A DNA stretch of 64,000 bases, taken from positions 62,001 through 126,000 of the forward strand of contig NZ_JADDKQ010000016.1 of assembly GCF_016464425.1 (NCBI RefSeq). Reading direction: 5' to 3'. This DNA comes from Actinotalea solisilvae. Lineage in GTDB: Bacteria > Actinomycetota > Actinomycetes > Actinomycetales > Cellulomonadaceae. Shown here in pieces: positions 36,868 through 53,891 of this stretch; positions within the stretch are counted from its first letter, which is position 1, and the number at the start of each line of letters is the position of its first letter. A program made the translations under genes and the position numbers. The notes under the pieces are model-generated. The model was not told the DNA's origin and did not search any database. It saw only the letters and a list, made by a program, of their open reading frames with translations.

Positions 36868-36887
36868 GACGAGCCTCCCTGTTCTCA

Positions 36888-36940
36888 CACCGGCAAACGG
36901 GTTTGACCGGTGTTGCCACCCTCCGCCGATGCGCAACACC
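36888..36940. promoter_or_regulatory. nested and paired dyads between the small gene and the CGNR gene
   Basis: CACCGG-CAAAC-GG-GTTTG-A-CCGGTG (36888-36912) is a near-perfect 25-bp palindrome. It is followed by GGTGTTGC (36909-36916) and GCAACACC (36933-36940), perfect 8-bp arms 16 nt apart. TGTCAA is repeated at 36941-36946 and 36960-36965. CGNR proteins are thought to bind DNA, so self-control from here is plausible. Confidence 0.55.
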
Positions 36941-36985
36941 TGTCAATGGGTTACGGTGGTGTCAATCTCACGAGGAGGGTCCGCC

Positions 36986-37573
36986 ATGGCAGACGTCGAG
37001 CCGGCGGTACCGCGCGCCGTCGGGCTGGTCCGCGACTTCGTCAACACCTACGAGCCGCAGGTCGACGCGGAGTCCGTCGGGGACCCCGCCGTGCTGGGTC
37101 GGTGGCTCGTCGAGCGCGGCCTCGCCGCACCGGGCACCGCGCTCCACGCCGCCGACGTCGTCCGGGCCCACGTCGTCCGCGAGGGCTTGCGGTCGGTGCT
37201 GCTCGACCACGCGGGTCACGAGCCGGACCCGGCCGCGCTCGCGGCCCTCAACGCGACGCTCGCCGCGTCACCCGTCACGCTGGCCTTCGCGCCCGGCGGC
37301 CACCGCATCGTCGCGCTCGACGGCGACGGCCTCGCGCCGGCGCTCGCCGGGCTGCTCGACGCCGTGCGCGAGGCGGCCGAGGACCAGACCTGGGGGCGGC
37401 TCAAGGTGTGCGCGCGCGACACCTGCCGATGGGCGTTCTACGACGCCTCCCGGAACCAGGCCCGGCGCTGGTGCTCGATGGCCGGGTGCGGCAACACGGT
37501 GAAGATGCGGCGCGCGTACGCCGCCCGGACGGGCCGCGGCCGCCCCGACGCGACCGACGGGTCGGTCGCCTAG
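36986..37573 (+). CDS. CGNR-type zinc-finger protein (ABATE domain), with CGNT instead of CGNR
   Basis: Predicted 195-aa regulator-like protein. The N-terminal ABATE domain begins AVGLVRDFVNTYEP. The C-terminal treble-clef zinc site is KVCARDTCRWAFYD and RRWCSMAGCGNT, with four cysteines in place. The namesake CGNR tetrapeptide reads CGNT here, so the Arg expected to touch DNA is replaced, while KMRRAYAAR behind it is still basic. GAGGAGG 7 nt before the ATG supports the start. Its stop overlaps the stop of the convergent ADP-ribosylglycohydrolase gene. Confidence 0.87.
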   Translation: MADVEPAVPRAVGLVRDFVNTYEPQVDAESVGDPAVLGRWLVERGLAAPGTALHAADVVRAHVVREGLRSVLLDHAGHEPDPAALAALNATLAASPVTLAFAPGGHRIVALDGDGLAPALAGLLDAVREAAEDQTWGRLKVCARDTCRWAFYDASRNQARRWCSMAGCGNTVKMRRAYAARTGRGRPDATDGSVA

Positions 37574-38559: not shown

Positions 38560-38564
38560 GCGCG

Positions 38565-38650
38565 CTATTCCACCAGGAAGTCGTACCGGACGCCGCGCGG
38601 TCACCAACCACCACGGCGTCGTCGGGGTCACCGCCCAGCAGCACCCTCAC
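38565..38650 (-). pseudogene. relic of the 3' end of the 578-aa operon gene
   Basis: Positions 38565-38600 match 38855-38890, the last codons and stop of the 578-aa gene, at 33 of 36 bases. A second block (38615-38650) matches the region starting at 39023. About 120 bp between the blocks are missing in the relic and the frame is broken. It is a decayed partial duplicate. Confidence 0.75.
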
Positions 38651-38835
38651 CGCAGGGGACTCGACGGCTCCACACCGTGGGCGTCGAGTGACTGCCGAGC
38701 GACGAGCCAGTCGACAAGGCGTTGCTCGCCGGAGACGAACGTGCACTCCATGTCCACATCAGTGGTGACACACCATGCAAGGTCCTCGGGCCACAGCAGG
38801 CTCGGCGACTGCGTCAGTGCGGCGATGCACCGCAC
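38647..38835 (-). CDS. short hypothetical ORF or gene fragment, 62 aa
   Basis: The frame opens at a GTG at 38833-38835 and reads ALTQSPSLLWPEDLAWCV, then DMECTFVSGEQRLVDWLVA, a natural-looking protein sequence. The DNA has clearly lower GC than its surroundings. There is no good ribosome binding site, and the piece is wedged between the 3' end of the giant operon and the relic of its last gene. It may be the tail of an inserted, truncated gene. Family unknown. Confidence 0.4.
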   Translation of the reverse strand: MRCIAALTQSPSLLWPEDLAWCVTTDVDMECTFVSGEQRLVDWLVARQSLDAHGVEPSSPLR

Positions 38836-38854
38836 CTGCCCGCTCGGCGTCCCA

Positions 38855-40591
38855 CTACTCCACCAGGAAGTCGTAGCGGACGCCGCTCGGCGGCAGCCCG
38901 CTGCTCACGCGCGTCCGGTGCGCCGCCCACACGTGCAGCGACCCGTCGACCCACCGCGCCGCCTGGTAGGACCGCTGCACCACGAGGCCGCCCGTCGGCA
39001 CCTCCTCCTCCGGGATCAGCAGGGCGCCGTCAGGGTCGCCGCCCAGCAGCCGGGTCACGCTGCGGACCACCCGCCGGCCGCCGTCGAGCTCGAGCACCGC
39101 GCCGCGCGCGAGCGCCGTCTGGGCGCCGTCCACGCGCACCGGCAGCAGCGGGATCCAGTGCGGCGGCGGCGCCTGGGCCAGGTGGTAGTCCGGCGCGACG
39201 TCGGGGTCGCCGGGCGGCTCGGGCGGTCGGGTCGTGCCGAGCTCGACCCCGGTCTGCAGCGGCGTCTCGACGACCTGCTCGACCGCCCAGCCGAGGTTCG
39301 CGAGCTCGTCGCGCGCCAGCACCACCCGCTCGACCACGGGCCCGACGACGGGCTGCGCGAGGCGCGGCGTGAGGTAGAGCAGGTTGGTGATCGGCACGCC
39401 CTCGGGCTCGTCGTCGTCGACCGGCATCGCGTGCTGGAACAGCCCCCACCGCTCGGACGGCCCGAGGCGGTGGTCGCCGTGCGGCCGCAGCAGCGTGCGC
39501 GTGCCGAACGTGTCCGTGACCACGAGCGACGTCGCGTGGACCAGGTGCCCCACGGGCAGGTCGACGCCGACGACGAACCAGTCGTTGCCCCAGCCCGAGA
39601 GCGTCTCGATGAGCAGCAGCTGGCCGAGGTCGGTCTCGGCGGGCCGCAGCGCGGCGAGGTTGAGCCGGCCGTCCTCGAGCTCCCAGAACCGCCGCGCGGG
39701 CAGCCCGGGCGCCGTCACGGGCGCGGGTATGACCGTGCGCGTGACGGCGCGCCCGGCCTCGGCCGGCGTCGTGCCCAGGTTGACCTCGCCGTTGACGTCG
39801 AGCTCGTACCAGTCGAGCGTGTCGCTGTCGTAGCGGTGCGCGGTGAGCGTCGTCTCGCCCGCGGGGTCGGCGGTGCGCCGTGCGGCGATCGACGCGGTGT
39901 GCTCGAACCGGGCGGGCTGCCAGCTCGTGGCCGCGGGATCGGCGTCGGCGAACAGCCCTGCGACCAGCCGGAGCCACTCGGCACCCGCCGCGCGCAGCTC
40001 GGCGCGGTCCCCGGGGTCGACGTCGACGCCCAGCCGCAGGAGGTCGTGCGCCTCGAGCTCGCCGCGCAGGCGCCGGCCGTCGAGGCTGCGGCCCGCGTGC
40101 AGGCGCGCGTAGCCCGCCGTCGCGGGGTCGAGCGCCGCGAGCACCTCCGGCGCGGGCTCGGGCACCGCGTACGCGCGCACGACGTCGGCTGCGTAGTCGC
40201 GCGACGTCGTCTGGCGCGCGAGCACCCGCAGGAAGAGCCGGCCCGTGTCGACCGCGAGCCGCACACCCTCGGCCGTCGCCGCCGACGACGGGAGGGGTGC
40301 GCCCGCGCGCTCGACGAGCGTCTCGAACGGCGCCGCGGTCGCGTCGAACCGGTCGGCCTGGAGCGCCGTGTCGGCCGGCACGGGCCCGGCGACGAAGCGC
40401 GTCGGCAGGGTCGCGACGCCGCGCCAGCGCGCGACCACGGGCGTGCCGCCGTCGTGCCCCGCGAACTCCCCGACCTGCCACTGCCGGGCGAGCAGCCACA
40501 GCGGGTCCGCGACGGGCGCGGCCGCGCCGTCGGCGACGTCCGGCCGCATCGGGTCCGGCTCGAGCCGCGCGAAGGTGGTGATCGAGGCCAC
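38855..40591 (-). CDS. giant-operon gene 5: uncharacterised 578-aa protein
   Basis: Soluble, no signal peptide or membrane helix. It begins ASITTFARLEPDPMRPDVADG and continues with DPLWLLARQWQVGEFAGHDGG, a phrase I have seen in uncharacterised proteins of several bacterial phyla but cannot tie to a function. The rest is mixed alpha/beta with many Trp/Arg near RRFWELEDGRLNLAAL, SGWGNDWFVVGVDLP and GVRYDFLVE at the end. The GTG at 40591 lies 1 nt behind the stop of gene 4 with GGGGGA 6 nt upstream, so it is coupled. It is the last gene of the operon; a relic of its 3' end lies 255 bp further on. Confidence 0.82.
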   Translation of the reverse strand: MASITTFARLEPDPMRPDVADGAAAPVADPLWLLARQWQVGEFAGHDGGTPVVARWRGVATLPTRFVAGPVPADTALQADRFDATAAPFETLVERAGAPLPSSAATAEGVRLAVDTGRLFLRVLARQTTSRDYAADVVRAYAVPEPAPEVLAALDPATAGYARLHAGRSLDGRRLRGELEAHDLLRLGVDVDPGDRAELRAAGAEWLRLVAGLFADADPAATSWQPARFEHTASIAARRTADPAGETTLTAHRYDSDTLDWYELDVNGEVNLGTTPAEAGRAVTRTVIPAPVTAPGLPARRFWELEDGRLNLAALRPAETDLGQLLLIETLSGWGNDWFVVGVDLPVGHLVHATSLVVTDTFGTRTLLRPHGDHRLGPSERWGLFQHAMPVDDDEPEGVPITNLLYLTPRLAQPVVGPVVERVVLARDELANLGWAVEQVVETPLQTGVELGTTRPPEPPGDPDVAPDYHLAQAPPPHWIPLLPVRVDGAQTALARGAVLELDGGRRVVRSVTRLLGGDPDGALLIPEEEVPTGGLVVQRSYQAARWVDGSLHVWAAHRTRVSSGLPPSGVRYDFLVE

Positions 40592-40592
40592 G

Positions 40593-43500
40593 TCAGTCCC
40601 CCTGCGGCGTGAGCGCGTTCGGGTTCGTCGAGACGGCGTCCCGGTCCGCGTTGTAGGCGAGCACGGTCGCCGGGAGGTACTGCCGCACCGCGCCGAGCGC
40701 CGACGGCGGGACGGCCCGCAGGTGCGCCTGCTCGAGCGTCTCCACGAGCACCTGGTCGAGCGTCCCGACCGTCCACGGCTCGCCCGCGACGGGCGGCACC
40801 GCGAGCAGCACGGCCTGGGGCGCCATGAGCTCGGGCGGGTCGTACCGGAACGCGACGCCGGTCGTCTCGTGCGCGGACGGGACGACCTCGGCCCACTCGT
40901 CGACGAGCAGCCCGCACACGGCGCGGCCCGGCGCCACGACGTCGGCCCCCACGAGCAGCAGCGAGGCGGCGCCGTCCACGTAGTGCTCGGCCGGCAGGGC
41001 GTTCCAGGTCGCGCCCGGCACGTGCGGGACCTGCGCCGCGGCGAGCGCGAGGGGCGGTCCGCCGAGGGCCTCCGCCTCACGCAGCGCGATGCCCAGCCGC
41101 GCGAGCGGCTCGCGCACGCGCTCCATGCGCGTGAGCCACACCTCGGGCGCGAGCGCGTCGCCGCCCAGCAGACCCGGGTCGTCGCGCGAGGCGCAGACGT
41201 CGGACGCGGTTCCCGGGACGGCGCGGGGCAGGACGACGAGCCCCGGGCCGAGGAGCGCGCGCAGCCGCTCGGACGCGGCCGCGACCGCCGCCTCGGGCGT
41301 GCGGCCGTCGGCGACCGCGTCGGCCTCGGCGAGGCGCGCGGCGAGCCGGGACCGGACGCGCCCCGCCGCCGCGGTCCAGGCGTCGGGCGCGCTCTCGGCC
41401 GGCACGCCCGCGTCCCCGACCCCGAGCGCCCAGGTCGCGGCGACGGCCGCGCGCACCGCCGCGACGTCCGGCGCGGTCGAGGCGGTGAGCACCGCGTCGA
41501 GGCCGGCAGCCGCGCCCGCGACCGCGGAGCGCGCCGCGGCCGCGCGCGCCTCGAGCTCGGCGACGTCGACGTCCGGCTGCGGGTCCGCGTGCGGCGGCCG
41601 GAACGCGGACCCGTCGAGCGGTCGCACCGGGCCGAGCAGCGCGGCGAGCGCTCGGCCGACCTCGAGCAGGTCGCCCAGGTCACGGTCGACGTCGACCACC
41701 GGCCGCCGCAGGTCCGCGCCCGACGCGAGCGCCGCGCGGGCCGCGACCTCGGCGAGGCCCGCGTCCCCGGCCCCGGCCACGCGCACGACGTCGCTCGCGG
41801 AGAGCCCGAGCGCGGGCAGGGCGACGGTCGCCACGGCGCCGCCCGCGGCGTCGCGGACCGTCACGGTCCGGCCGGTCGCCGCCCCGAGCAGCCGACCGAG
41901 CCACGCGTCGAGCGCGGGCGAGGCGGCCGCGCGCGGCGAGGCGGCCGGCCCCGCCCAGCCCTCGGCCGCCGGGGCGTCGGGGTCCAGCACGACGGCGACG
42001 CGGTGCGTCACACCGACGCCCGTCCGCGGCGTCGCGAGGACGTCGAGCTCGGGCGGCGGGACGAGGCCGCGGTCGACGTCGGCGACCGTGCTCACCGCGC
42101 GGTCGAGGTCCCCCAGCGCGAGCTGGTGCACGTGCTCGGCCTGGAGCGCGTCGGCTGCGGCGTCGACCGCGCCGCCGAGCCGCCGGAGCACGGCCGCGGC
42201 GGCCGCGCGACGGGCCGCGCTCGGGTCGCCGCCCACGAGGTGGTCGAGCGCGTGGTCCTCGCTCTGCGCCCACAGCGCGTGCAGGCCCAGCCCGTCGAGC
42301 CGGCGGGCGGCCGGCGGCAGGTGGTCCTCGCCGGGCAGCGGCGCGACCTCGCGCGCGTTGTCGACGGCCGCGTCGAGGTCGTGCTCGTGCAGGTCGCGCT
42401 CGACGAGGTAGCCGAGCACCGCACCCACGGACCGGCCGGCGCGCACGCCGTCGAAGATCCAGCGGGCGAGGCGCACGCGCGAGGACGTGAGGCTGATGGC
42501 GAAGGGCCCGTCGCCGCCGCCCTGGGCGAGGTGGGCGTTGCGCAGGAGGGCCGCGACCTGCGCCTGGTGCAGGGACGGCGCGTGCAGGAAGCCCGGGTCG
42601 TCGGCGGCGGCGAGCAGCGGGGCCTCCTCGCCCGGGGGGAGCTCGGCCAGGGGCGCAGCCGTGGCCGGCGCGAGCTGCTCGGCCCAGCCGTACCCGCCCA
42701 CGACGACGCCCGCGGGCTCGGCCGCGCGCAGCTCGGCCAGCCGCCGGGTCGCGAGCGACGTCACCCACGCGTCGACCCGGTGCGAGGCGGCGTCCAGGGT
42801 GCCGAGCAGGTGCCGCTCGAGGGTCGCGACCTCCGTCGCGGCGAGCGTCTCGACCGCCGCGCGGAACGCCCGCAGGTCGGCGGTCGCGGGATCCGTCCCC
42901 GCCGCGACCCGCTGCGCGACCGTGTCACCCCCGGGCAGCGTCGTCGCGCGCCGCGCGGCCCAGCCGACCGTCGGCTCGCCGACGCCGTAGAACTCGGCGT
43001 CCGTGACGTCCGGCGCCTCCGGACCGAGCAGGCGGGCCGCCGCGGTGGCGTGCTCGCGCAGCAGCCCGTGCCGCACGAGCGCGACGAGCAGCGACGCCGG
43101 GACGTCGTCCCCGCCCGCGGCGAGCGCGTCGACGTCGGCCGCGAGCAGCGCGCGCAGGCGGTCCCCCTCGCCCTCGGCCGCGACCAGGGGCACCGTGACG
43201 GGCGCCGTCCCCGGCTCGTGCACGGTCAGCGCGCCCGCGCGCAGCCCCACGCCCGCGGCGACCGCGACGGGCAGGGCGCGGTCGCGCGCGACGTCCCAGA
43301 AGCCGGCGTCGGTCAGGCGGCGGCCGAGGAAGCGCTGGACGTGCTCGGCGAACCGTGCGCCGAAGGCGCGGCGCACGTGCACGCGGTCCGAGCGGTCGCC
43401 CAGGCGCAGGACGTCGACCAGGTCGGCCGCGACGTCGCCGCGCCCGACGCGCGGCGCCTGGGCGAGCACCGGCCGCCAGGCGTCGTCGACGAGTCCGGCG

Positions 43501-44759
43501 AGGGCCCGGCGCAGGCGCGCGGTGCGCTCGTCGCCCGCGAACCGCCCGAGCGACGTCACGGGCAGCAGGCCGTAGGGCTGCCGCCCGACCCGCAGCGTCG
43601 GCAGCGGCCCGCCGGGCCGCACGGAGGACCGCGCGTGCTCCCGCGCCCACGCGACGTCGGCGTCCGCGACCCCGAGGAGCTGCGGCAGGACGTAGCCCCA
43701 GGTCGCAGGCCAGAGCGCCGTGGCCATGGCCGCCGCGACGGCGTCGTCGTCCGGCGCGCCGCCCGGGACGCCCGCGAGGACGTCCGCCGGCACCCCGAGC
43801 GCCGCCGCCGCGCGCGCCGCGGGCGTCCCGGGCGACGGCGCCGCGGGGTGCGGTGACCACGTCCCGCGCGCCGCGCTCGACCAGCCCGACGGCGCGTCCT
43901 CGGCGTTGTTCGTCGGGGTCCCGGGGGCCAGGAGCGCGAGGCCCTCGGAGAAGCGCTGCGCCTCGAGCAGGCGCGCGAGGCCGTCGGCACCCTTACCGGG
44001 GGCACCCTCGCGGACGCCCGTGACGAGCAGCAGGTCGACGGGCCCGGCGACCGGAAGGCGCAGCGCCATGCCGATCTCCTCGGCCGTCGCGAAGTCGACG
44101 AGCCAGCTCATCGCCTCGTCCACGGCCGCGACCTCGTCGTCGCCCTCGCCGCCGTCCTCGGCGTGCACGAGCGGCGCGGCGAGGTCGGGCCCGACCGCCG
44201 GGTCCGCCGTGATCGGGCGCCCCGTCGCGACGGCGACCACGGCGCCCTGGGCGTAGGCGGTCGCGGTCCACCGCGTGGGCAGCAGGCGCGCGACGGGCGT
44301 GCGGGGCACCTCGGACGCCACCAGGGCGGGGAACACCGGCTCGGTCGCGAGCGGCGTGCCGTCGGGGACCGCGGCGTCCGGCCGGGCGGCGGCGTTCGTC
44401 GGCGTCGTGGCCCGGGCGACCCACGCCGCGCGCCCCGGGCCCCACCGGTCGGCGAGCGCCGCCCAGGCGCGCTGCGTGCGCTCGCGGTCCGTGCCCGTGC
44501 GCCACGCGGCGCGCCAGAAGTCCTCGCCGGACGCGATCTCCCCAGCGGACAGCGCCGGGTCGTGCGCGTCGACGTGGACCTGGTCGGGGTAGACCCGCAC
44601 GAGGAGCGACGTCCCGTCGCCGTCGGTCCGGAACCGCGTCTCGAGCCGGACGGGCAGCAGCACGAGGGGGTGCGCCGGGCCGGCGACCTGCGCGGCGAGC
44701 CGGTCGTCGGCGGCGAGGGCGTCGGCCGTGAGCGGACCGAGCGCGAGCGGCTCGCTCAT
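40593..44759 (-). CDS. giant-operon gene 4: uncharacterised 1388-aa protein
   Basis: Very large soluble protein. N-terminal landmarks are PLVLLPVRLETRFRTDG, RVYPDQVHVDAHDP and GRAAWVARATTPTN. In the middle, LRVGRQPYGLLPVTSLGRF and LGRRLTDAGFWDVARDRAL; near residue 780, LHQAQVAALLRNAHLAQGG; and near the C-terminus, YVDGAASLLLVGADVV and FRYDPPELMAPQAVLLAVPP. Long Ala-rich helical stretches occur around residues 1000-1200. No catalytic motif is recognised. ATG overlaps the stop of gene 3 (ATGA, 44756-44759). The size and lack of secretion signal suggest a scaffold or shell component, an inference only. Confidence 0.82.
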   Translation of the reverse strand: MSEPLALGPLTADALAADDRLAAQVAGPAHPLVLLPVRLETRFRTDGDGTSLLVRVYPDQVHVDAHDPALSAGEIASGEDFWRAAWRTGTDRERTQRAWAALADRWGPGRAAWVARATTPTNAAARPDAAVPDGTPLATEPVFPALVASEVPRTPVARLLPTRWTATAYAQGAVVAVATGRPITADPAVGPDLAAPLVHAEDGGEGDDEVAAVDEAMSWLVDFATAEEIGMALRLPVAGPVDLLLVTGVREGAPGKGADGLARLLEAQRFSEGLALLAPGTPTNNAEDAPSGWSSAARGTWSPHPAAPSPGTPAARAAAALGVPADVLAGVPGGAPDDDAVAAAMATALWPATWGYVLPQLLGVADADVAWAREHARSSVRPGGPLPTLRVGRQPYGLLPVTSLGRFAGDERTARLRRALAGLVDDAWRPVLAQAPRVGRGDVAADLVDVLRLGDRSDRVHVRRAFGARFAEHVQRFLGRRLTDAGFWDVARDRALPVAVAAGVGLRAGALTVHEPGTAPVTVPLVAAEGEGDRLRALLAADVDALAAGGDDVPASLLVALVRHGLLREHATAAARLLGPEAPDVTDAEFYGVGEPTVGWAARRATTLPGGDTVAQRVAAGTDPATADLRAFRAAVETLAATEVATLERHLLGTLDAASHRVDAWVTSLATRRLAELRAAEPAGVVVGGYGWAEQLAPATAAPLAELPPGEEAPLLAAADDPGFLHAPSLHQAQVAALLRNAHLAQGGGDGPFAISLTSSRVRLARWIFDGVRAGRSVGAVLGYLVERDLHEHDLDAAVDNAREVAPLPGEDHLPPAARRLDGLGLHALWAQSEDHALDHLVGGDPSAARRAAAAAVLRRLGGAVDAAADALQAEHVHQLALGDLDRAVSTVADVDRGLVPPPELDVLATPRTGVGVTHRVAVVLDPDAPAAEGWAGPAASPRAAASPALDAWLGRLLGAATGRTVTVRDAAGGAVATVALPALGLSASDVVRVAGAGDAGLAEVAARAALASGADLRRPVVDVDRDLGDLLEVGRALAALLGPVRPLDGSAFRPPHADPQPDVDVAELEARAAAARSAVAGAAAGLDAVLTASTAPDVAAVRAAVAATWALGVGDAGVPAESAPDAWTAAAGRVRSRLAARLAEADAVADGRTPEAAVAAASERLRALLGPGLVVLPRAVPGTASDVCASRDDPGLLGGDALAPEVWLTRMERVREPLARLGIALREAEALGGPPLALAAAQVPHVPGATWNALPAEHYVDGAASLLLVGADVVAPGRAVCGLLVDEWAEVVPSAHETTGVAFRYDPPELMAPQAVLLAVPPVAGEPWTVGTLDQVLVETLEQAHLRAVPPSALGAVRQYLPATVLAYNADRDAVSTNPNALTPQGD

Positions 44760-47584
44760 GCCGGCCTCAGCAGGACGGCCACGGGGATGGTGAGGCGCGC
44801 GGGCAGCTGGCGCAGCCGTGCGGCCTGCCGCGCCGACGTCGCCTCGGTCGCGGGCGCGTGGGTGACGCCGGCGGGCGCCTCGCCGACCTCGAACCCGAAG
44901 CGCGGCGCCCCCGGCTGCTCCGCGATGACGATCGACCATGCCTCCGCCTCGGCGAGCGGCACGGTGAACCCGAAGAACGTGACGTCCGGCTCCATCGACC
45001 CGCGGAACACGGGCAGGAGGTGCTCGGCCGGCGGCCCCGGGCGGGTGGCCGAGACCAGGACGTCCGGGAAGCGCCGGACGAGCTCGCTGCGCAGCAGCAG
45101 GACGAACCGGTCCTCGGACACCGTCGGGGCACCCAGGCCGCGGTCCCCCCACGCGTCGAGCGGCGCGACGTCGGGCGGCGCGTCGGGGTCGACCGCGGCG
45201 TCCCAGAAGCGGTCGAAGAACGTCGCCGTGAGCGGCGTCGGGTACTCGCGCCAGAGCAGCTCGCGGCCGAGCTCGTGGTTGAGCCCGACCATGAAGGCCT
45301 CGACGAACGCGCCGTTCGTGCGCAGGCCGAGGGCGGTGTTCGCGGGCACGCCGTCGAGGCCCGGCAGCAGCCAGTGCTGGCCGAGCTCGACGAGCGCGCG
45401 CGACATCGGGGTGTCGAACCGCGGCGCGAACCGCAGCGCGGGCACGACGCCGCCCGACCCCGGCACCGCCGGCACGGTCGGCACCGCCGGACCCGGATCC
45501 TCGAGCAGCCCCGCCACGCTGGCCCCGAACGTGCGCGTCGGCGCCGTGAGCGCCACGGCCTCGGCGAACACGTCGCCGCTGCGGAGCACGCCCAGCGGCG
45601 GGCGGTCGGGCGGCGGGGGCGGCAGGAACGCCGCGAGCTGTCGCGCCGCGGCGGCGCGGAAGGCGACCGCGTCCGCGCTGTCCCGGCGCGGGGGCCGCGG
45701 GTCGACCGGGTCCGGGTCCACCGGGTCCGGGTCCACCGGGTCGACCGGCCCGGGCTCCGTCGGGTCGCCCGGGTCGCCCGGGCGCCGCCGCGCGAGCGGG
45801 ACCGCGCGGCCACCGAGGACCGGGCCGACGACGCCCGGGTCGAGGACCCCTCCCCCGAGGACCGGAGGCAGCGGACGGGGACCGGGCGTCGGCACCGGCG
45901 CGGGCGCGAGCGCGAAGCCGGGCCGCGGCGGCGCGTGCGTCACCGCGGCCGCGCTCACCTGGGCCCACGACGCCTCGACGGGCGTCGGCGACGACGCCCC
46001 GCCCACCTCGAAGGTCAGCGGCCCGGCGACCGGCGTGAGCTCGCGCCCGACCCGGACGGCGGGCGCCATCCGGCCGAGCACGTCGAGCCGGGCCGACGGC
46101 GCTCCGCGCCGCAGCCGGCGCACGGCCGGGCCCCGCGGCCGGGTGGCGCGCCGCACGGCCGGGCTCAGCGCGCGGTCCGGGAGACGGGCCTCGGCCCACC
46201 GCTGCGCGAAGCTCGCGCCGTCGCCCGTCCCCGTCGCCGGGGCACCCAGCAGCCGCGCCCGCAGCGGCGCGAGCACGAACAGGCCCGCCTCGGGCGGGAG
46301 CGGCGCGACGTGCCGCCGGTGCAGGCTGTCCGCGAGCGCGAGCCCGAGCGTCGCGAGCCCCAGCACGCGGCCCGCGGCCCGGAGGTCCGCGGCCTGGTCC
46401 CACGCCGCGGCCACGAGCGTCTCCTGCTGGTGCTGGACGACGAGCGTCCCGAGCGCCGCCGCGACGCGGTGCGCCGGGTCGCGGTTGAGCTGCTCGTACC
46501 AGCGACCCGGGCGCGCGGGGTCGAGCCGGGGGGCGAGGACGTACGGCGAGCCGTAGCGCGGCGGGGCGAGCAGCGGGGTCCCCGCCGGTGCGTCGTCGGG
46601 CGCGTTCACGACCTCGGTCAGCGAGTCCGCGAACCGGGCCGCCATCGCCGGGTCGGACCACGGCTCGGCGCGGGGTCCGAGCGTCAGCAGCGCGCCCGCG
46701 AGCCGGAGCTGCACGTCGTCGGCGCCCGGGACGCCCAGGCCCGACGTCGACAGGTCGACGGCGCGCGTGCCGAAGCCCTCGGCGACCGGGCGCCCGCGGA
46801 TCGCGAGCGCGAGGGACTGGAAGTCGCCCGCCGGGCCGGTCGCGAACCGCCAGTGGTGCAGCACGGGCAGGTCGACGGGCGCCATGTCCGGCGCGCGCCG
46901 CCACGCCGGACCCTCGGCGTCGCCGGGGTCGTCGCCCAGCCCCGCGCGCCTGCCCGCCTCGAACGTCGGGACCACGCACGCGAGGTACGCCGTCTGCTCG
47001 GCCAGCAGGCGCGGGCTCACCAGGCGCGCGAGGCTGCGCCCCGGGTCGCCCGCGAGCGCGCCCGCGAGGGCGGCGTCGCCCGGGACGACGTCGCTCGCGA
47101 GCTGCGCGTGCGCCCAGGCCCAGCTCTCGTCGAGGTCGGGCAGCTCGTCCTCGGGGCGAGCGGCGCCGCCGATCCGCAGCACCGGCAGGACGCCGCGCCC
47201 GGGCGGGAGCAGCTGGACGCCGGGCTGCTCGCGCACGACGACGAGGCACAGCCACGGCCGCAGCCGCCCGGCCGACGCCGACGCCGGCGTGAAGAGCCAG
47301 GGCAGCGCCGGCTCGTCCAGCTCGACCTGCGCCAGGTAGTTGGACTCGAAGGTGCGCGCGCCCGGAGCGGGGTCGGTCCGGATGACCTGCTGCGGGGCGA
47401 GGCCGGTGACGTCACCGGGACCGAGGAGGCGGAACGCGACGGTCGCGGGTCCGGCACCGTTGACCCGCACCTCGGCGGTCGACGCCACGCTGCTCGCCGG
47501 GTGGCCGTCGCGCGGGTCCGGCGGCAGGTCCAGGGGTCCGCCGCGGCGCACCCACGGCAGCAGGACGAGGTTCGGCTCGCTCAT
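44756..47584 (-). CDS. giant-operon gene 3: uncharacterised 942-aa protein with Pro-rich linker
   Basis: Soluble protein in two parts. Part 1 (about 1-500) starts NLVLLPWVRRGGPLDLPPD and includes PWLCLVVVREQPGVQLLPP and LPVLHHWRFATGPAGDFQSLA. A low-complexity Pro/Asp linker (about 590-650, with VDPDPVDPDPVDP) is encoded by a 15-bp DNA repeat. Part 2 contains LGLRTNGAFVEAFMVGLNHEL and GRELLWREYPTPLTATFFDRF, a strongly conserved-looking block I remember from uncharacterised proteins elsewhere, and ends LTIPVAVLLRPA. ATG overlaps the stop of gene 2 (ATGA, 47581-47584). No enzyme motif recognised. Confidence 0.82.
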   Translation of the reverse strand: MSEPNLVLLPWVRRGGPLDLPPDPRDGHPASSVASTAEVRVNGAGPATVAFRLLGPGDVTGLAPQQVIRTDPAPGARTFESNYLAQVELDEPALPWLFTPASASAGRLRPWLCLVVVREQPGVQLLPPGRGVLPVLRIGGAARPEDELPDLDESWAWAHAQLASDVVPGDAALAGALAGDPGRSLARLVSPRLLAEQTAYLACVVPTFEAGRRAGLGDDPGDAEGPAWRRAPDMAPVDLPVLHHWRFATGPAGDFQSLALAIRGRPVAEGFGTRAVDLSTSGLGVPGADDVQLRLAGALLTLGPRAEPWSDPAMAARFADSLTEVVNAPDDAPAGTPLLAPPRYGSPYVLAPRLDPARPGRWYEQLNRDPAHRVAAALGTLVVQHQQETLVAAAWDQAADLRAAGRVLGLATLGLALADSLHRRHVAPLPPEAGLFVLAPLRARLLGAPATGTGDGASFAQRWAEARLPDRALSPAVRRATRPRGPAVRRLRRGAPSARLDVLGRMAPAVRVGRELTPVAGPLTFEVGGASSPTPVEASWAQVSAAAVTHAPPRPGFALAPAPVPTPGPRPLPPVLGGGVLDPGVVGPVLGGRAVPLARRRPGDPGDPTEPGPVDPVDPDPVDPDPVDPRPPRRDSADAVAFRAAAARQLAAFLPPPPPDRPPLGVLRSGDVFAEAVALTAPTRTFGASVAGLLEDPGPAVPTVPAVPGSGGVVPALRFAPRFDTPMSRALVELGQHWLLPGLDGVPANTALGLRTNGAFVEAFMVGLNHELGRELLWREYPTPLTATFFDRFWDAAVDPDAPPDVAPLDAWGDRGLGAPTVSEDRFVLLLRSELVRRFPDVLVSATRPGPPAEHLLPVFRGSMEPDVTFFGFTVPLAEAEAWSIVIAEQPGAPRFGFEVGEAPAGVTHAPATEATSARQAARLRQLPARLTIPVAVLLRPA
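45705..45734 (-). repeat. 15-bp tandem repeat coding for the DPVDP linker
   Basis: ACCGGGTCCGGGTCC occurs twice exactly (45705-45719, 45720-45734) with partial copies on both sides. It is in frame within gene 3, so copy-number changes would only lengthen or shorten the linker. Confidence 0.65.
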
Positions 47585-50500
47585 CGCACGCCCACCGGCG
47601 CGGCGAGGCGCGGCGCGTCCGGCCGCTCGACGCCGCCGTAGCGCTCGGCGACCGCGGTGCGCGTCGCGGCGCGGGCCGCCGCGGCGAGCCGCAGGCCCGC
47701 GCGCAGCTCGCGCGGGTCGACGGGCCGCGGGTCCGGCCGGACGACGGGCACGCCGTCCGGCCCGACGACCACCTCGGTGTACCGGAACGGCTCGGCGACC
47801 GCCGCGGCGGCGTCGGAGACGTAGCGGTCCGAGCCGAGGCTCACGCCCGCCTCGCGGCGCACCACGCCGGGCGCGGCGAGCCGCTCGGCGTCGCTCATCT
47901 CGAAGTACTGCCCGTCGGGGAACTCGTCCTTCACGGGCACGACGTCGGCCGTGGCCCCGCCGATCCGCGGGTCGGTGAGCGCGAACCGCCGCGCGTCGCG
48001 CGGCACCGCCGCGCCCACGCGGTCGATGTCCCGGTCGGTGCGCAGCGGCACGACCGCCTGCTGCACGACGAGCCGCCCGAGCGGGTGCAGCAGGAGCACC
48101 TCGCTGCGCGGCTCGCTGCGCACGCCGGCCACCTGCCCCGCGCTCGCGGGCAGCTCGGCGCGCCAGCTGCGCGCGTCGCCGAGCCGCGCGAGCACCTCGG
48201 CGACGACGTCGATGCTCTCGGTGACGACCGAACCGCCGCCCCCGACGAGCGTCCTGTCGAACGAGACCGTGTAGTCCCACCAGAGGATGCCGAAGGTCGC
48301 CCGGCCCGCGACGCGGAGCGGGATCGGCCCCTCGAGCGTGCCCCGCACGTCGACCTTGAACAGGTTCCGCGAGCCGCGCTTGAGCTGCACGCCCGCCGCG
48401 AAGTCGGCGACGAAGTGCGGCGGCCAGAAGCTCACGAGCACGTCGAACCCGATGTACCCCTCGATGCTGAAGCCGTACGCCGCGGCGTAGAGCGACGCCT
48501 TCGCGCCGAGCTGGAGGGTGTTCGTCGTCACCGCGAGGTACGCCTCGAGGACCAGCCGCGGGTTGTCGCCCGTCGTGAGCGCCACGGTGACCCGCGGCAG
48601 CGCGGGGAACCCGGCGGGCGGCGTGAACCGCGGGTTGAAGCCGCCGACGGCGAGCGCGAAGCCCTGGCCGCGCTCGCGGCGGAAGGCCGCCGCGCCCGTG
48701 AGGACGAACCGGCCGCAGAGCTTCGACTCGTAGAGCACGGCGTCGAGCGCCGCCGCGCCGGTCTCGAGGTCGAGCACGCCCACGACGTCCAGGTTCAGCG
48801 TCACGAGCGCGTCGTCCTCCTGCGGGAGCACCGACGACAGCCGGCCGAGCACGAGCAGGCGGCTCGAGTCCGTGTGGGAGTCGCGCTCGAGCAGGAGCGC
48901 GAGGTCGGCGCGGAGCAGCGGGTGCGCGCTGCCGAAGGTGAGCTTCACGAGGAAGCCGTAGATGCTCGTGCCCTGCTTCGGCGGGAAGAAGGTGCGCAGC
49001 GCGGAGACCAGCTCGGGCAGGTGCTTGACCGGGTCCGCGGGGAACAGGACGTGCTTGAGCTGCCCGGAGGGCAGCGCCGCGCGCACGGCCGCGACGTCCA
49101 TCGTGCGGTCCGAGGCGTAGAGCAGGCCGAAACCGTCGAAGGTCACCACGCCCGCGTCGAGGCCGAGGTGCTCCACCGTCCCGATGAGGATCAGCGACGA
49201 GTGCTCGGCACCCTCGCGGTCCCGGGTCGAGGCGAGCCCCACGCAGGTGAGGGTGAGGCGCTTCTTCACGCGCAGGACGAGCGCACCCGCGTAGTCGCCG
49301 GTCGAGGGGTCGTACTGGATGGTCCCGCCCCCGCTCACCGGGCCGGTGCGCAGGTCGAGCGCGATGCCCGTGGGCCGGGTCGCGTCGACGTGGGCGTCGA
49401 CCACGCGCAGGTTGCGCTCGTCCGAGGGCGTCATGGTGTCGACCTCGGCGAGCAGGCCGAGCCGGTCGACACGGACGTACAGCGGTCCCAGCTGCGTGCT
49501 GAAGGACACGAGCGCCCCGACGGCGACCGCCCACCCGGTCGCCGGGTCCTCGGCGCGCTCGTACGCGGCGCGCAGCACGACCTCGTGCACGTTGATGCCG
49601 AGCGTCCCCCCGCCGCCGAGCGGCAGCGTGAGCTCGAGGTCGGACGGCCCCGCGGGACCGGCGGAGTCGAACGGCGGCTCGGGGCCCGTCGCGTCGACCG
49701 CGCTCGGCACGTGCACCTCGTGGATGAAGCCGAGCGCCGCGTCGTAGCCGAGGCCGAGCGAGAACGCCTTGCGGTAGGGCCGCCCGCCGAGGAGCGTGCG
49801 GACGAAGGAGTCCTTGTCGGCCGAGTCCACGACGAGCGTGCAGTGGTCGAGCCGCAGGAGGACGCGCGCGCCCGTCGCGGAGATCGTGAGGACGACCGCG
49901 ATCTCGCCGAGCTCGACGCGGGTCCCCGTCGCGCGCGGCAGGGCGTAGCTCACGCCGGTCTCGTCGGGGACCGCGTGGTAGCCCACCGACACGGCCGCGC
50001 CGGCCGCCGCGGCGTTCGCCTCGACCCCGCCGCCGCCGATGAGCAGGGCCGCGTCGGCGTCGCTGCGGACGTGGACGCGGAACCGCCACGTCGGGTCGTC
50101 CCCCGAGGAGAGCACCTCGTCGAGCGTGAGGCTGCCGCCGAGCGCGAGGAACAGCTGGTGCGGTCGTGCCGGCGTCCCGATCCGGCGCGGCAGGTACATC
50201 CACGTGAGGCGCAGCTGCTCCGCGTCGGCGCCCTCGCCGTCGCGGCGCAGCGCGATCGACGTCATGCGCGCCGCGAGCACGTCGGCCGCGGTAGGGCGCG
50301 CCGGCGAGTCCACGTCCAGCGCGGCCGCGTCCCAGCCCACGACGACGTCGCCGAGCGCGTTGCGGTTCTCGCCGTCCTTCGTCTGGTCGACGACGGCGAT
50401 CGCGGCGACGATGCCCCGCACGAGGCCGTCGACGACGAGGAACGACGTGTCGCGCGCGGTGTTCAGGGTGCTGCCCTCAGCGTCGGGCAGCGTGTCGTCG

Positions 50501-51021
50501 AGGTCGTCGAGCGTGCGCCCGGGGTTCCACACGAACGAGAAGATCGTCGCGAAGGCGCTGAGGAACCGCGAGTGCGCCCGGTCGCCCGGGGCGAGCGAGC
50601 CGGTGAGCTCCGCGGTGACCGAGACCGCCTGCATCACCAGGAAGAGCTTCGGCCAGCGGCGCCGCACGTAGGTGCTCCCCAGCAGGTCGAGCAGGCTCGT
50701 GACGAACGTGTCGCCACGACCCGCCCAGTCGGCGCCCTCCCAGGCCTCCACCTGGTCGATGACGGCGCCGAGCAGCAGCGCGAGGTTGCCCGCGGCCTCG
50801 ACGTCCGCCTGGAGGTCGCCGTCCACCTGCTCCCGGTAGGCGCGGACGGCGGCGAGCGGCGCCTCGGGCAGCACGAGCGGGCCGGACGCCCCGCCCGGCG
50901 CCGCCCCGAGGTCCCGCAGCACGGCCTCGCGCGCCTCCGGCCGCCCGAGCAGGTCGGCCGTGAAGACGACGAGGTCGAGCACCTCGCCCGCCAGGCTGCG
51001 CAGCACCGAGCCCGCGCTCAT
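47581..51021 (-). CDS. giant-operon gene 2: DUF6603-like 1146-aa protein
   Basis: Large soluble protein. The N-terminal 180 residues are helical (EVLDLVVFTADLLGRPEAREAV). From about 280 on it is dominated by repeated beta strands. The stretch [81 protein letters not shown] and FGILWWDYTVSFD (about 620-900) matches my memory of the family labelled DUF6603, which has no known function. The many Gly-flanked strands would suit a large beta-sheet scaffold. ATG overlaps the stop of gene 1 (ATGA, 51018-51021). Confidence 0.82.
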   Translation of the reverse strand: MSAGSVLRSLAGEVLDLVVFTADLLGRPEAREAVLRDLGAAPGGASGPLVLPEAPLAAVRAYREQVDGDLQADVEAAGNLALLLGAVIDQVEAWEGADWAGRGDTFVTSLLDLLGSTYVRRRWPKLFLVMQAVSVTAELTGSLAPGDRAHSRFLSAFATIFSFVWNPGRTLDDLDDTLPDAEGSTLNTARDTSFLVVDGLVRGIVAAIAVVDQTKDGENRNALGDVVVGWDAAALDVDSPARPTAADVLAARMTSIALRRDGEGADAEQLRLTWMYLPRRIGTPARPHQLFLALGGSLTLDEVLSSGDDPTWRFRVHVRSDADAALLIGGGGVEANAAAAGAAVSVGYHAVPDETGVSYALPRATGTRVELGEIAVVLTISATGARVLLRLDHCTLVVDSADKDSFVRTLLGGRPYRKAFSLGLGYDAALGFIHEVHVPSAVDATGPEPPFDSAGPAGPSDLELTLPLGGGGTLGINVHEVVLRAAYERAEDPATGWAVAVGALVSFSTQLGPLYVRVDRLGLLAEVDTMTPSDERNLRVVDAHVDATRPTGIALDLRTGPVSGGGTIQYDPSTGDYAGALVLRVKKRLTLTCVGLASTRDREGAEHSSLILIGTVEHLGLDAGVVTFDGFGLLYASDRTMDVAAVRAALPSGQLKHVLFPADPVKHLPELVSALRTFFPPKQGTSIYGFLVKLTFGSAHPLLRADLALLLERDSHTDSSRLLVLGRLSSVLPQEDDALVTLNLDVVGVLDLETGAAALDAVLYESKLCGRFVLTGAAAFRRERGQGFALAVGGFNPRFTPPAGFPALPRVTVALTTGDNPRLVLEAYLAVTTNTLQLGAKASLYAAAYGFSIEGYIGFDVLVSFWPPHFVADFAAGVQLKRGSRNLFKVDVRGTLEGPIPLRVAGRATFGILWWDYTVSFDRTLVGGGGSVVTESIDVVAEVLARLGDARSWRAELPASAGQVAGVRSEPRSEVLLLHPLGRLVVQQAVVPLRTDRDIDRVGAAVPRDARRFALTDPRIGGATADVVPVKDEFPDGQYFEMSDAERLAAPGVVRREAGVSLGSDRYVSDAAAAVAEPFRYTEVVVGPDGVPVVRPDPRPVDPRELRAGLRLAAAARAATRTAVAERYGGVERPDAPRLAAPVGVR

Positions 51022-53891
51022 GGCGGCGGCGCCGGGATCGGGGCGCGGGCCAGCACGGCCTCGCGCAGCTGCTCGGGCGGCGCCTCGTCGACGGGTCCGA
51101 GGGACGCGCGGTGGACCATGTACGGGCCGAGCACCGGCAGCTGCGTCTCCGGGTCGACGGCGGAGGTGTACACCTCGCCGACCACGGTCACCACGCCGTC
51201 GTCGTCGGTCTCGAACCGGCAGATGCCGACGTTCGAGCGGAACATCATCTGGCGCGTGTTCCGCATCCGGTCGAGCGAGCCCTGGTGCCGGCGCGCGACG
51301 GCCTGCATCGCGGCGAACGCGGTCGCCGGGTCGGCGAGCTGCGCCTCGACCGCCGCGTCGTCGAGCGGGACCGCGCGGATCGGCGGCGGGCGGTCGGCGT
51401 CGGACCGCTCGTCGAGCAGCGGCGTGATGCGCCACCGCCACTCGGGCGGGCGCGCGGGGTTGAGCCGCGAGGTCAGCCCCGGGTCGGGGGCCGCGCCCTC
51501 CTCGTTCTCGTCGGGCCAGCCGTGCGTCGTCAGGAGCACGGGGCTGCGCAGCAGCCGCGCGCGCGTCGTCGCGACGAGGTCGGCCTCGGTCAGGCCGCGG
51601 GGCAGCAGCACGAGGTCGGCGTCGGGCCGCGTCCAGCCCAGGCGCTCGACGCCGAGCTTCGCGCGCAGCAGCTCCTGGAGCAGCATGGCGCTGCGGTCGA
51701 GCGCGCGCAGGTAGACGGGCATGACGTTCTTGAACCCGCTCGAGGTGAGCTGGGCGATGCGTGCGGGCCGGGGCGCGTCGCCGCGCCAGTAGCTCATGAC
51801 GTTGGACGCCGCGTTGTGCACGTCGCCCGAGAGCACGACGACGCGGCCGTGCTCGGCGAGCCGGGCGAGCAGGTGCTCGTACGTCACCGCGTCGAACGCC
51901 CACGTCTCGAGCGCGTCGGGGTTGGTGCCCGGCATCCGCCGGGTGCCCGCGAGCGACGTCGGGTCGGTGAGGTCGCCGGCCTCGACGAGGTCGAACACCC
52001 GGTAGATCGCCCGCGCGACGACCTCGTCGATCACCGGCGGGCCGAGGACCTGGAGCGGGGCGAGCACCACGAGCACCTCGCGCCCCGCGGGCAGCGGCGG
52101 CCTGGGCACCTGGTCGACGAGCGCCTCGGTGGACACGTTGCCCGGCGGGCCGATCTCCGCGGCGTAGCTGCGCCGCGTCCGGTTGTCGAGCGCGACGACG
52201 ACGTGCTTCGGGCCGTCGACGGTGAAGTGCCACGTCATCGCGGCGTCGACCGGGCCGAAGCGGCCGTCCGGGAGCACGGGGTTGTCGAGATGGTGCCCGA
52301 ACATCCGGCCGATCGCCGTGAACAGGTCCCGGTCCGGCCCGGCGGCCGCGCCGGCCGGGAAGAGCTCGGTCGCGCGGTCCAGCAGGTCGCCGGGGAGCTG
52401 CCCGCCGAGCTCCGGGTGCTCGGCGGTCGTGACCGGGTCGTAGCGCCGCGGGTCGTTGCCCCAGTCCTGGAACAGGGCGTAGGCGAGCATCCCGTTCGTG
52501 AGGACCGTCTGCCCGAGCGCGGTGCCGAGCACGCGGCGGCGCCACATCGGGCTGAGGAAGAGGTCGTCGGTGACGTCGTGGTCGTCGAGCACCATGTAGG
52601 TCGGCGCGTTGGCCAGCACGCGCTGCACCTTCGCGAGCCCGAGCAGGAACTCGCGGTGGACGCGGTGGCTCCGGCGCCGGGACCGTGCGCGCTCGGCGTC
52701 GCTCACCGTCGCGGCCTCCGCGGCCCGCGCCGCGATCGCGGCGGCGGACGCGAACAGGTGCTCCGGGACGCGCTCGGGGTGTACGGGGCGCGGCATCGCG
52801 ACGTCGTCGTCCTCGCCCAGGACGTCGAGCCAGCGCAGGGGTGGGCCGATCGTCCCGCCGACCGGGACGCGCGAGGCCCCGGGCACGACGTCGCCCCAGC
52901 ACGCGGGCGACCACGCGAGCACGTAGGCGGCCGCGAACTCGCCGAGCGAGACGAGGTGGTTGACGCCGTCGGTGCTCGTCAGCTGGGCGGCGAGGTTCGT
53001 GAGCCGCAGGCGGCCGCCGATCGGGACGTCCTGCGGGCCGGCGGGCAGGTCGCCGACGGGGAAGGCGGGCGGGCCCGCGGGCAGCGCACCCGCGTCCGCC
53101 GTCTGCGCGGGGGTCTCGGGCGCGTAGGCGGCGGCCGGGTCCGCCGGGTCCACCGCGCTCCCGGCCGGGCGCCGCAGCACCTGGTCGACCGGCACGCGCT
53201 CGACCGGCACCCCGCCCGACGTGCCGACGAGCTCGACGCCCAGCTCGGCGGTGCGCAGCATCATGATCGAGTCGACGTCGTCGGCGTAGATCTGGTCCCC
53301 GCCCAGGAAGAGCTGGTGGATCCTCGCGCGCGGGTCGTCCATCGTCGCGGCGAGCACCTCGTCGAGCCAGGCGAGCGCGTCGCCGTCGTCGTACCCGGGC
53401 CGGCGGCAGGACCCGTACGCGAGGCGGAGGTCGTCGAGCGTCGTCGGGGGCAGCGCGAAGCTCGGGAGCATCCGGTCGGCGTAGCCGAGCGGACCGGCCT
53501 CGACGCCGCTGACGGTGTGCGGCCCGAGCAGCCCGAGCGTCGCGAGGTCGCTCGTGACCCCGCCGGCGGTCGTGATCCGGACGTCGTAGGAGTAGAGGCG
53601 GTCGGGCTGGAACGCGCGCCCCGACGTGGGTGGCAGGCGGGCCGTGACGAGGCCCAGGTGCAGCCGCTCGCCGATCCGCACCGTCGCCCCGCCGGGGTGC
53701 GGCGGCGGCGCGTTCGGGTCCGCCGGGTCGTCGCTGCGCGCGAACGGCGGGTTCTCGGTGTCGTGCGCGACGCGCCCCTCGTACACCGTGAGCCGGACCT
53801 CGGCCGCCTCGCCGAGGACGACCTGCACGGCGACGAGCCCGGGGTCGACGCGGCGCAGCAGCGGACCCGCGAGGAGGAGCGGAACGGCCAT
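51018..53891 (-). CDS. giant-operon gene 1: PhoD-like metallophosphatase domain protein, 957 aa
   Basis: First gene of the operon. An N-terminal beta domain (about 1-150) is followed by a PhoD-type core: LAYGSCRRPG (157-166), GGDQIYADDVD (197-207), MVLDDHDVTDD (433-443) and VLSGDVHNAAS (686-696), i.e. the expected metal-ligand positions. The core carries insertions, and a further 250 residues follow it. Classic PhoD enzymes are Tat-exported; here the N-terminus MAVPLLLAGPLLRRVDPG has no twin Arg, so the protein should stay in the cytoplasm. The substrate may be a phosphodiester or a lipid/teichoic polymer; unknown. Confidence 0.87.
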   Translation of the reverse strand: MAVPLLLAGPLLRRVDPGLVAVQVVLGEAAEVRLTVYEGRVAHDTENPPFARSDDPADPNAPPPHPGGATVRIGERLHLGLVTARLPPTSGRAFQPDRLYSYDVRITTAGGVTSDLATLGLLGPHTVSGVEAGPLGYADRMLPSFALPPTTLDDLRLAYGSCRRPGYDDGDALAWLDEVLAATMDDPRARIHQLFLGGDQIYADDVDSIMMLRTAELGVELVGTSGGVPVERVPVDQVLRRPAGSAVDPADPAAAYAPETPAQTADAGALPAGPPAFPVGDLPAGPQDVPIGGRLRLTNLAAQLTSTDGVNHLVSLGEFAAAYVLAWSPACWGDVVPGASRVPVGGTIGPPLRWLDVLGEDDDVAMPRPVHPERVPEHLFASAAAIAARAAEAATVSDAERARSRRRSHRVHREFLLGLAKVQRVLANAPTYMVLDDHDVTDDLFLSPMWRRRVLGTALGQTVLTNGMLAYALFQDWGNDPRRYDPVTTAEHPELGGQLPGDLLDRATELFPAGAAAGPDRDLFTAIGRMFGHHLDNPVLPDGRFGPVDAAMTWHFTVDGPKHVVVALDNRTRRSYAAEIGPPGNVSTEALVDQVPRPPLPAGREVLVVLAPLQVLGPPVIDEVVARAIYRVFDLVEAGDLTDPTSLAGTRRMPGTNPDALETWAFDAVTYEHLLARLAEHGRVVVLSGDVHNAASNVMSYWRGDAPRPARIAQLTSSGFKNVMPVYLRALDRSAMLLQELLRAKLGVERLGWTRPDADLVLLPRGLTEADLVATTRARLLRSPVLLTTHGWPDENEEGAAPDPGLTSRLNPARPPEWRWRITPLLDERSDADRPPPIRAVPLDDAAVEAQLADPATAFAAMQAVARRHQGSLDRMRNTRQMMFRSNVGICRFETDDDGVVTVVGEVYTSAVDPETQLPVLGPYMVHRASLGPVDEAPPEQLREAVLARAPIPAPPP

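Follow-up and report, generated by a model that had tools for sequence, protein, structure and literature searches.

The window analysed here is a stretch of 64,000 nucleotides of Actinotalea solisilvae (C38:62001-126000, within a 4.3-Mb genome). It contains five coupled genes on the minus strand that encode proteins of 957, 1146, 942, 1388 and 578 amino acids, called g1 to g5 below. Comparison with relatives showed that the five genes are one example of a widespread system, apparently spread by horizontal transfer, with a constant core (g2 to g5) and a variable hydrolase slot upstream of g2, which is occupied here by g1.

The genes follow one another from g1 (51018..53891; minus strand, as are all features below) through g2 (47581..51021), g3 (44756..47584) and g4 (40593..44759) to g5 (38855..40591). 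The start codon is ATG in g1, g2, g3 and g4 and GTG in g5. The g1/g2, g2/g3 and g3/g4 junctions are ATGA overlaps of 4 nt each. A 1-nt gap separates g4 and g5. The last part of g4 contains a ribosome-binding-like GGGGGA (40597..40602), with 5 nt between it and the GTG that starts g5. A first-pass annotation of this DNA had described the same five genes, the three overlaps, and the gap with a binding site inside the upstream gene, all of which the coordinates confirmed. The coupling is also seen among relatives, in which no more than 30 nt separate the preceding stop from the nearest in-frame start at 28 of 31 g1/g2, 70 of 82 g2/g3, 61 of 84 g3/g4 and 72 of 80 g4/g5 junctions, counts that are biased toward small gaps because the script takes the start nearest to the stop.

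The GC content at third codon positions (GC3) was 97-99% in all five frames. All five stood out in a codon-usage gene call, made with a model trained on these same genes, and homologues of all five proteins aligned over their length. On these grounds, g1 to g5 are genes and not chance open reading frames (ORFs) of DNA with 76% GC. The longer versions of g2, g3 and g4 in the ORF list are an artefact of extension back to the first GTG.

Only one of the five proteins scored above a curated cut-off. The first-pass annotation had proposed that the second protein resembles DUF6603, and this was right: g2 matched that family (PF20248) with 327 bits (E 2e-97; 27-bit cut-off) over residues 491-1045 (47887..49551). 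By score g2 is a member of DUF6603, a family for which Pfam gives no function; what sets g2 apart is its place within a fixed four-gene core. No convincing match to g3, g4 or g5 of the window was found in Pfam, NCBIfam, PHROGs or PADLOC; g3 had one insignificant NCBIfam match and none in the other three, and g5 had one insignificant Pfam match. When profiles of g2 to g5, built from 42-56 relatives, were compared with solved structures, the matches were at chance level. Among g3, g4 and g5 themselves no homology was found, save a local match between g5 residues 86-182 and g4 residues 750-833 with 53% probability.

The g3 alignment had 34 invariant columns over 44 rows and divides the protein into two conserved domains and a variable middle (residues 485-706; 45467..46132). 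This middle is a Pro/Asp-rich linker in the window copy and contains FG-GAP repeats in Streptomyces wedmorensis (L052). A tRNA-Gly called by ARAGORN inside g3 (window positions 45608-45688) had no Rfam support, and we took it as false.

The model of g2 had a mean predicted local distance difference test score (pLDDT) of 72. Block means were mostly 82-94 across residues 611-920, and the helical N-terminus was of low confidence. In the model the DUF6603 domain is a long, largely antiparallel beta-meander in which most strands are amphipathic. A Foldseek search with this model returned mostly outer-membrane barrels, ushers and LptD among the 50 matches listed, nine of them below E 1e-3, with template modelling scores (TM-scores) below 0.3 and root-mean-square deviations above 19 Å. 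We took this likeness as a generic effect of long strands, given the TM-scores. The g5 model (pLDDT 77, predicted TM-score 0.74) had no match in the Protein Data Bank (PDB) or among the viral models of BFVD below E 1e-3, which suggests that the fold predicted for g5 has not yet been solved.

We searched 72,556 plasmid records by tblastn and found relatives of g1 in 19, of g2 in 13, of g3 in 13, of g4 in 12 and of g5 in 14. Any of g2 to g5 was matched in 14 records, and 13 of these had all four genes; the g4 of Nocardia was missed by BLAST and recovered by profile. The plasmids with the core come from Streptomyces, Nocardia, Natrinema, Salinigranum, Halalkalicoccus, Halobellus, Gemmatirosa, Rhizobium and Paraburkholderia. 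In the 14th record (Streptomyces anthocyanicus, L014, 17640-19644), all that is left of the core is g5 and a g4 remnant scoring 64 bits; two genes for IS5 transposases lie about 4 kb upstream of this decayed copy.

When 84,980 species genomes were scanned with a profile of g3, 324 relatives came up. The 77 loci kept derive from the 80 of these 324 stretches that are most similar to g3, a choice that over-represents PhoD-type relatives; the counts of such pattern scans are lower bounds. Genome and plasmid loci were combined into a set of 88, for which g3 was the seed in the genome scan. Left out were L045 (a copy of L003), L011 and L019 (a phage record), L014, L016 (a lone PhoD gene), and L001, L017, L018, L097 and L098.

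The genes present kept the order g2-g3-g4-g5 and a single strand in all 88 loci. The seed g3 was present in 88, g2 in 83, g4 in 86 and g5 in 80, and 13 of the 15 absences were at contig ends. Four of the five loci without g2 begin within 433 bases of g3, and the other, L082, had none within the 9.8 kb examined. Both loci that lack g4 stop at a contig end, and so do seven of the eight that lack g5; the remaining one is the second copy in Halobellus, which lies close to where its record ends. In Leptolyngbya PCC 7375 (L082), g3-g4-g5 are followed by a PhoD-like gene. Pairwise distances of the four core families correlated with Spearman coefficients of 0.66-0.84 (permutation maximum 0.14; 58 rows), species relatedness not being controlled.

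Co-occurrence in distant genomes had been suggested as a check in the first-pass annotation, and g2 to g5 pass it: they form a fixed four-gene core, and this anatomy is solid. The claim of a five-gene unit stood for these four genes and failed for g1, which is replaced by other hydrolases elsewhere and has 15 plasmid relatives in records without the core.

The 88 loci are spread over 13 bacterial phyla and the haloarchaea. The phyla are Actinomycetota, Pseudomonadota, Bacteroidota, Planctomycetota, Nitrospirota, Verrucomicrobiota, Acidobacteriota, Chloroflexota, Cyanobacteriota, Bacillota, Myxococcota and Goldiibacteriota, with Gemmatimonadota added from plasmids. On the core tree (FastTree, no bootstrap), Sphingomonas stands beside Desertimonas and Rubellimicrobium beside Planotetraspora, a placement that suggests transfer of the whole core set from phylum to phylum. 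The set is also rare: g5 was found in two of 100 genomes of the phylum and DUF6603 in two of 10 near relatives, the own genome included in both counts. The DUF6603 gene of a congener (G001:C1:649935-651434) is far from that of the window (24% identity over part) and has a higher family score.

Among named genomes, the closest core relatives of the window copy are Cellulomonas species. The source genome has an estimated contamination of 8.17% and some equal-score matches on two contigs; the core itself falls near that of other Cellulomonas. The genes flanking the cluster in the window resemble ordinary chromosomal genes, judged by length and N-terminus only. No empty insertion site was found in the genus, since the best matches of the two flanking genes were never adjacent among the matches listed (19 genomes including its own, eight with the first gene). 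A promoter and terminator scan 5' of g1, which does not cover this type of organism, found none. Elsewhere, the cluster adjoins genes annotated as error-prone DNA polymerase and DNA polymerase Y family in Rhizobium lusitanum (L005, 2758-7580) and a gene of the impB/mucB/samB family in Arcticibacter (L043, 19868-22877), possibly by chance.

The first gene, g1, is not part of the core and is one occupant of the slot upstream of g2. Its product is a predicted PhoD-like metallophosphoesterase. It scored 21.3 bits against PhoD of Pfam (PF09423), under the 27-bit cut-off, and contains the putative metal-binding motifs GDQIYADD (residues 198-205; 53277..53300), DDHDVTDD (residues 436-443; 52563..52586) and SGDVH (residues 688-692; 51816..51830). 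The columns of these motifs were mostly invariant or nearly so in 22 sequences, and we take them to be metal ligands by assignment from the PhoD family. A g1 profile gave a weak match to alkaline phosphatase among solved structures (E 0.11). The PhoD-like fold that the first-pass annotation had recognised in this protein is borne out by the sub-threshold score together with the motifs. g1 differs from PhoD-like phosphatases (PF09423) in falling below the curated cut-off, in having no signal peptide by a crude test, and in being encoded ahead of the core. Of the 19 plasmid records with a g1 relative, the core was present only in Salinigranum (one record) and S. longwoodensis (three); the 15 without it belong to Roseibium, Labrenzia, Salinivibrio and Photobacterium. 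In the Salinivibrio record, the one of the 15 that was read, the surrounding genes are unrelated.

Upstream sequence was available for 80 loci, and the slot contained a PhoD-like enzyme in 30, an S8 subtilase in six, a trypsin-like protease in six, an M64 peptidase in three and a phospholipase D-like (PLD) enzyme in three, that is, a recognised hydrolase in 48 of the 80. These classes were drawn from several searches. Profiles run over 51 neighbour genes (49 of the 64 upstream genes found, plus two downstream genes of L012) detected seven subtilases, four M64, four trypsin-like and three PLD proteins. Scanned singly, 20 slot-region proteins gave four M64, three PLD and four trypsin-like members, two that were weakly NAL1-like (L007, L096), one RNase E (L091), and six without a family. 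The class of L007 and L096 rests on weak matches and motifs, and that of the subtilases of L046, L049, L058, L060, L064 and L012 on the tally of seven and motifs, with mutual similarity for the first four; L064 is a distant subtilase, with an own-profile E of 0.18.

Catalytic motifs, scored by simple patterns and by reading L064, were present in many of these enzymes. All three S8 motifs were found in four of seven subtilases (L036, L046, L049, L064), a GDSG-type serine in nine of 10 trypsin-like proteins, HExxH in three of four M64 proteins, and two HKD motifs in three of four PLD proteins. The trypsin-like enzymes often occur as tandem pairs (L007, L013, L077, L088), and the second one of L013 had no serine motif by pattern.

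Unsupervised clustering of 547 non-core genes also recovered proteases, PLD and M64 as recurring families. Of the 23 enzyme members listed, 15 are at most 60 bases from g2. Six more, five proteases and one M64, are found 1.4-3.4 kb upstream, where they belong to tandem pairs or triples; the last two are an opposite-strand gene at a distance of 6.7 kb and a gene that comes after g5. For the two-component, ABC, TetR and SDR families, which also recur, the distances are scattered. On the core tree, the enzyme class of 48 labelled rows needed at least 12 changes, compared with 13-17 (mean 16.5) in 200 label shuffles, and so it follows the tree weakly; the 17 non-PhoD rows alone showed nine class changes.

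A C-terminal domain common to all slot enzymes was sought and rejected; only S8 and trypsin-like proteins share one, and one of the sets compared (S8mid) proved to consist of catalytic domain. The shared domain, which we call WHR, spans roughly 120 residues at or near the C-terminus, carries the motif WHRxxGP and was found in 11 copies in eight loci. Its bearers are the subtilases of L049 and L058 and the trypsin-like proteins of L007, L013, L056, L077, L088 and L096; in L013 and L077, one copy each precedes a second protease domain. Run over all 16,855 ORFs from the loci, the WHR profile had matches up to an E of 1 in slot genes only, and no copy was detectable in core proteins. Two of the 72,556 plasmid records contained WHR, both with the core. 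In 14 whole genomes (only 150 candidates scored in three of them) there were eight matches, of which seven coincide with the locus; the eighth, a second WHR domain elsewhere in its genome, lies at a contig edge (G110:C270:5-310). WHR is the strongest candidate for an attachment point between enzyme and core.

The core proteins showed few signs of export. A signal peptide was called in one of 50 g2, none of 44 g3, none of 42 g4 and none of 56 g5 proteins; these calls and those of membrane helices were made with hydropathy rules and not with trained predictors. By this crude test, the first-pass claim that no signal peptide is present holds. Its companion claim, that there is no clear membrane helix, is true of the window g3 and has to be softened elsewhere, given that residues 193-211 of the window g2 are a moderately hydrophobic stretch and that some g3 homologues carry a strong hydrophobic hairpin. 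The segment in question lies in the variable middle of g3 in 13 of 83 homologues from several phyla, and the trait changed at least seven times on the tree. In 10 of these 13 proteins it is a charge-free block of 33-46 residues with Lys or Arg within 15 residues on both sides, a block long enough for two helices that might form a hairpin.

Single core members carry add-on modules (PA14, lamin-tail, Kelch and FG-GAP; F5/8C below the cut-off), and a haloarchaeal g4 is annotated with a BGTF surface domain, found in one of 34 diverse core members. WD40 and Kelch families had three matches each in a profile search of 27 genes, made up of 24 of the 32 downstream genes and three genes between core genes. 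From sequence start and annotation, the genes concerned are placed between g2 and g3 (L051, L058, L060) or after g5 (L006, L073, L095). The gene between g2 and g3 in the first three loci (Actinomadura, Amycolatopsis) encodes 384-394 amino acids and is probably of Kelch type; the g2 of L051 itself ends in a Kelch propeller.

We infer the trigger and the function of the core system. The absence of export signals, the g3 hairpin and the catalytic motifs would be accounted for by a cytoplasmic, sometimes membrane-located assembly that restrains a hydrolase. g2 to g5 would form this assembly, with the two-helix hairpin of g3 as an anchor in some lineages. The core may keep the hydrolase inactive or positioned by way of the enzyme's C-terminal part, for example WHR. 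Release would follow when the core or its add-on modules (Kelch, FG-GAP, PA14, lamin-tail) sense a trigger, and the freed enzyme could attack components of the cell, lipids or phosphodiesters in the case of PhoD and PLD and proteins in the case of S8, trypsin-like and M64 enzymes. The likeliest use would be as a conflict system, that is, immunity against invaders or programmed cell death. We hold tentatively to this reading, an undescribed assembly in the cytoplasm, at times docked to the membrane, that restrains and then frees an exchangeable hydrolase and probably serves as an immunity or cell-suicide system, and rate it at somewhat under an even chance.

Several observations weigh against it. 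No recognised hydrolase occupies the slot in 32 of the 80 loci, of which 17 have there a same-strand gene that is unrelated or of no identified kind, 12 an opposite-strand neighbour and three nothing within 400 bases. Where there is one it adjoins g2, except in L013 and L077, in which a WHR-bearing partner with no Pfam match comes first and the recognised protease stands one gene further upstream. WHR itself is present in only two of seven S8 and nine of 10 trypsin-like proteins, and the ends of PLD, M64 and PhoD enzymes are unrelated. The hydrophobic segment is confined to the 13 of 83 g3 proteins and is lacking in the window g3. PA14, F5/8C, FG-GAP, lamin-tail and peptidoglycan-binding modules are typical of proteins outside the cytoplasm. 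The models of PADLOC-DB did not match any of g1 to g5 of the window up to an E of 0.1.

A further point on that side comes from the comparison with prokaryotic conflict systems that combine a constant core with variable effectors, such as the MoxR-vWA ternary and NucA-trypsin systems (Kaur et al., 2020; PMC7159879). The likeness lies in a constant multi-gene core, a swappable effector position and a patchy distribution, and extends to trypsin-like and S8 peptidase effectors and to a small non-enzymatic domain on effectors. Variable effectors at a fixed position, a criterion of that work, were found here: 48 of 80 loci carry a hydrolase from one of the five classes, and the class changes at least 12 times on the core tree. 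However, the MoxR, vWA, GTPase, STAND or other nucleoside triphosphatases (NTPases) of those systems were not found in this core: by Pfam, neither the five window proteins nor 34 diverse members of the core showed any NTPase or nucleotide-sensing family (MoxR AAA+, STAND, GTPase and others). The core described here consists instead of large families without a known fold, its enzymes include PhoD, PLD and M64, and a homotypic second copy of the effector domain on the core, as in the published systems, was not found for WHR. By analogy the present system may work like those conflict systems, yet it is not a member of them, since no NTPase was found in the core and no WHR copy was detectable there.

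The same modules could be read differently. g2 to g5 might form a released or exported weapon or a surface complex, an extracellular or lysis-released particle with the slot enzyme as payload, in which the modules bind targets and the g3 hairpin enters the target membrane. The PA14, F5/8C, FG-GAP and lamin-tail modules, which usually lie outside cells, fit this, as do the BGTF annotation of the haloarchaeal g4, the peptidoglycan-binding annotation of the S. longwoodensis g1, and, among slot enzymes, Big_2 and transthyretin-like segments that both score under the cut-off. There is also a likeness between the PA14 and Kelch add-ons and tail or structural proteins of phages, and missing signal peptides are also compatible with particles released by lysis. 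Extracellular contractile injection systems and tail-like particles consist of large proteins without signal peptides and have variable binding modules and payload enzymes; the likeness to the present system lies in these three traits, and the difference is that their defining parts were not found in this core and that the phage likeness that can be placed sits in add-ons.

In the five window proteins, no sheath, tube, baseplate, spike, tail or injection family was found by Pfam and no match at all in PHROGs. Of the 34 diverse core members, eight PHROGs matched one member each (best E 2e-61; two are named tail protein and virion structural protein), and these matches probably fall in add-on modules. 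For two module-bearing members the position was seen: phage searches matched a Caulobacter g5 at residues 298-461 (its PA14 add-on) and an Actinomadura g2 at residues 1182-1496 (its Kelch add-on). A pattern scan of 2.9 million viral contigs with the g3 profile gave 71 stretches, none of them a relative. No recurring neighbour cluster resembled lysis or secretion genes, judged by N-termini only, and the hairpin flanks, positive on both sides in 10 of 13, are as expected for a helix pair inserted by the producing cell. We regard a released weapon or surface complex as the less likely reading, one kept in play by the extracellular type of the add-on modules.

Another explanation is an enzyme complex without a role in conflict, for instance in envelope lipid or phosphate turnover or in controlled proteolysis, in which an amphipathic groove of DUF6603 would handle lipid and the hydrolase class would follow the substrate. 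The beta-meander with mostly amphipathic strands is in line with this, and the weak Foldseek neighbours include beta-proteins that handle membranes or lipids, such as LptD and ApoB; their TM-scores among the matches listed, however, give no evidence of homology. PhoD and PLD act on phosphodiesters, which would suit such a complex. ABC-type genes recur near four groups of loci, but at scattered distances of 0.1 to 11 kb. Rarity, plasmid carriage, placement across phyla and swapping of the enzyme are all unusual for housekeeping, and we consider this explanation improbable.

A single phage record among 50,697 contained g5. This is MT835531.1 (L019), a 40-kb sequence from faeces marked UNVERIFIED Bacteriophage sp., which has the end of g2 together with g3, g4 and g5 at 30103-40040 and 76% GC over the 29.9 kb measured; it is probably a bacterial contig filed as phage. 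It was also the match for g5 proper in the Caulobacter search. Derivation of the core from structural genes of a phage or provirus, for which this record and the eight PHROG matches would speak, is close to refuted, and a phage or injection-system origin was rejected on the PHROG, viral-contig, BFVD and add-on-module results; as for the possibility raised in the first-pass annotation that known phage tail, injection-system or biosynthetic families explain all the proteins, none found in the profile searches explains the core.

Leaving function aside, it is justified to call the core categorically new, since three of its families had no convincing match in the libraries used, one model had no structural match, and the gene set is fixed across two domains of life. 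A literature search, outside which most subscription papers fell, found no paper naming DUF6603 or PF20248 and no account of the system. A fuller version of the conflict reading, which we put forward with more doubt, is an immune or cell-suicide machine of bacteria and haloarchaea with a new four-protein core, at least one fold of which is apparently absent from the PDB, acting as a membrane-dockable cage or scaffold that would unleash interchangeable hydrolases without an NTPase switch.

g3, g4 and g5 range from actinobacteria to haloarchaea almost only as a unit linked with DUF6603, and with this a domain family and a set of anonymous giant proteins become one testable system. Unrelated proteases swapped on a common C-terminal domain give a straightforward starting point for studying the attachment of the enzyme. 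If the conflict reading is true, the locus would represent a new kind of core for prokaryotic immunity, one without the usual nucleotide switch; if it is not, g2 to g5 would still be a new large assembly tied to dangerous hydrolases.

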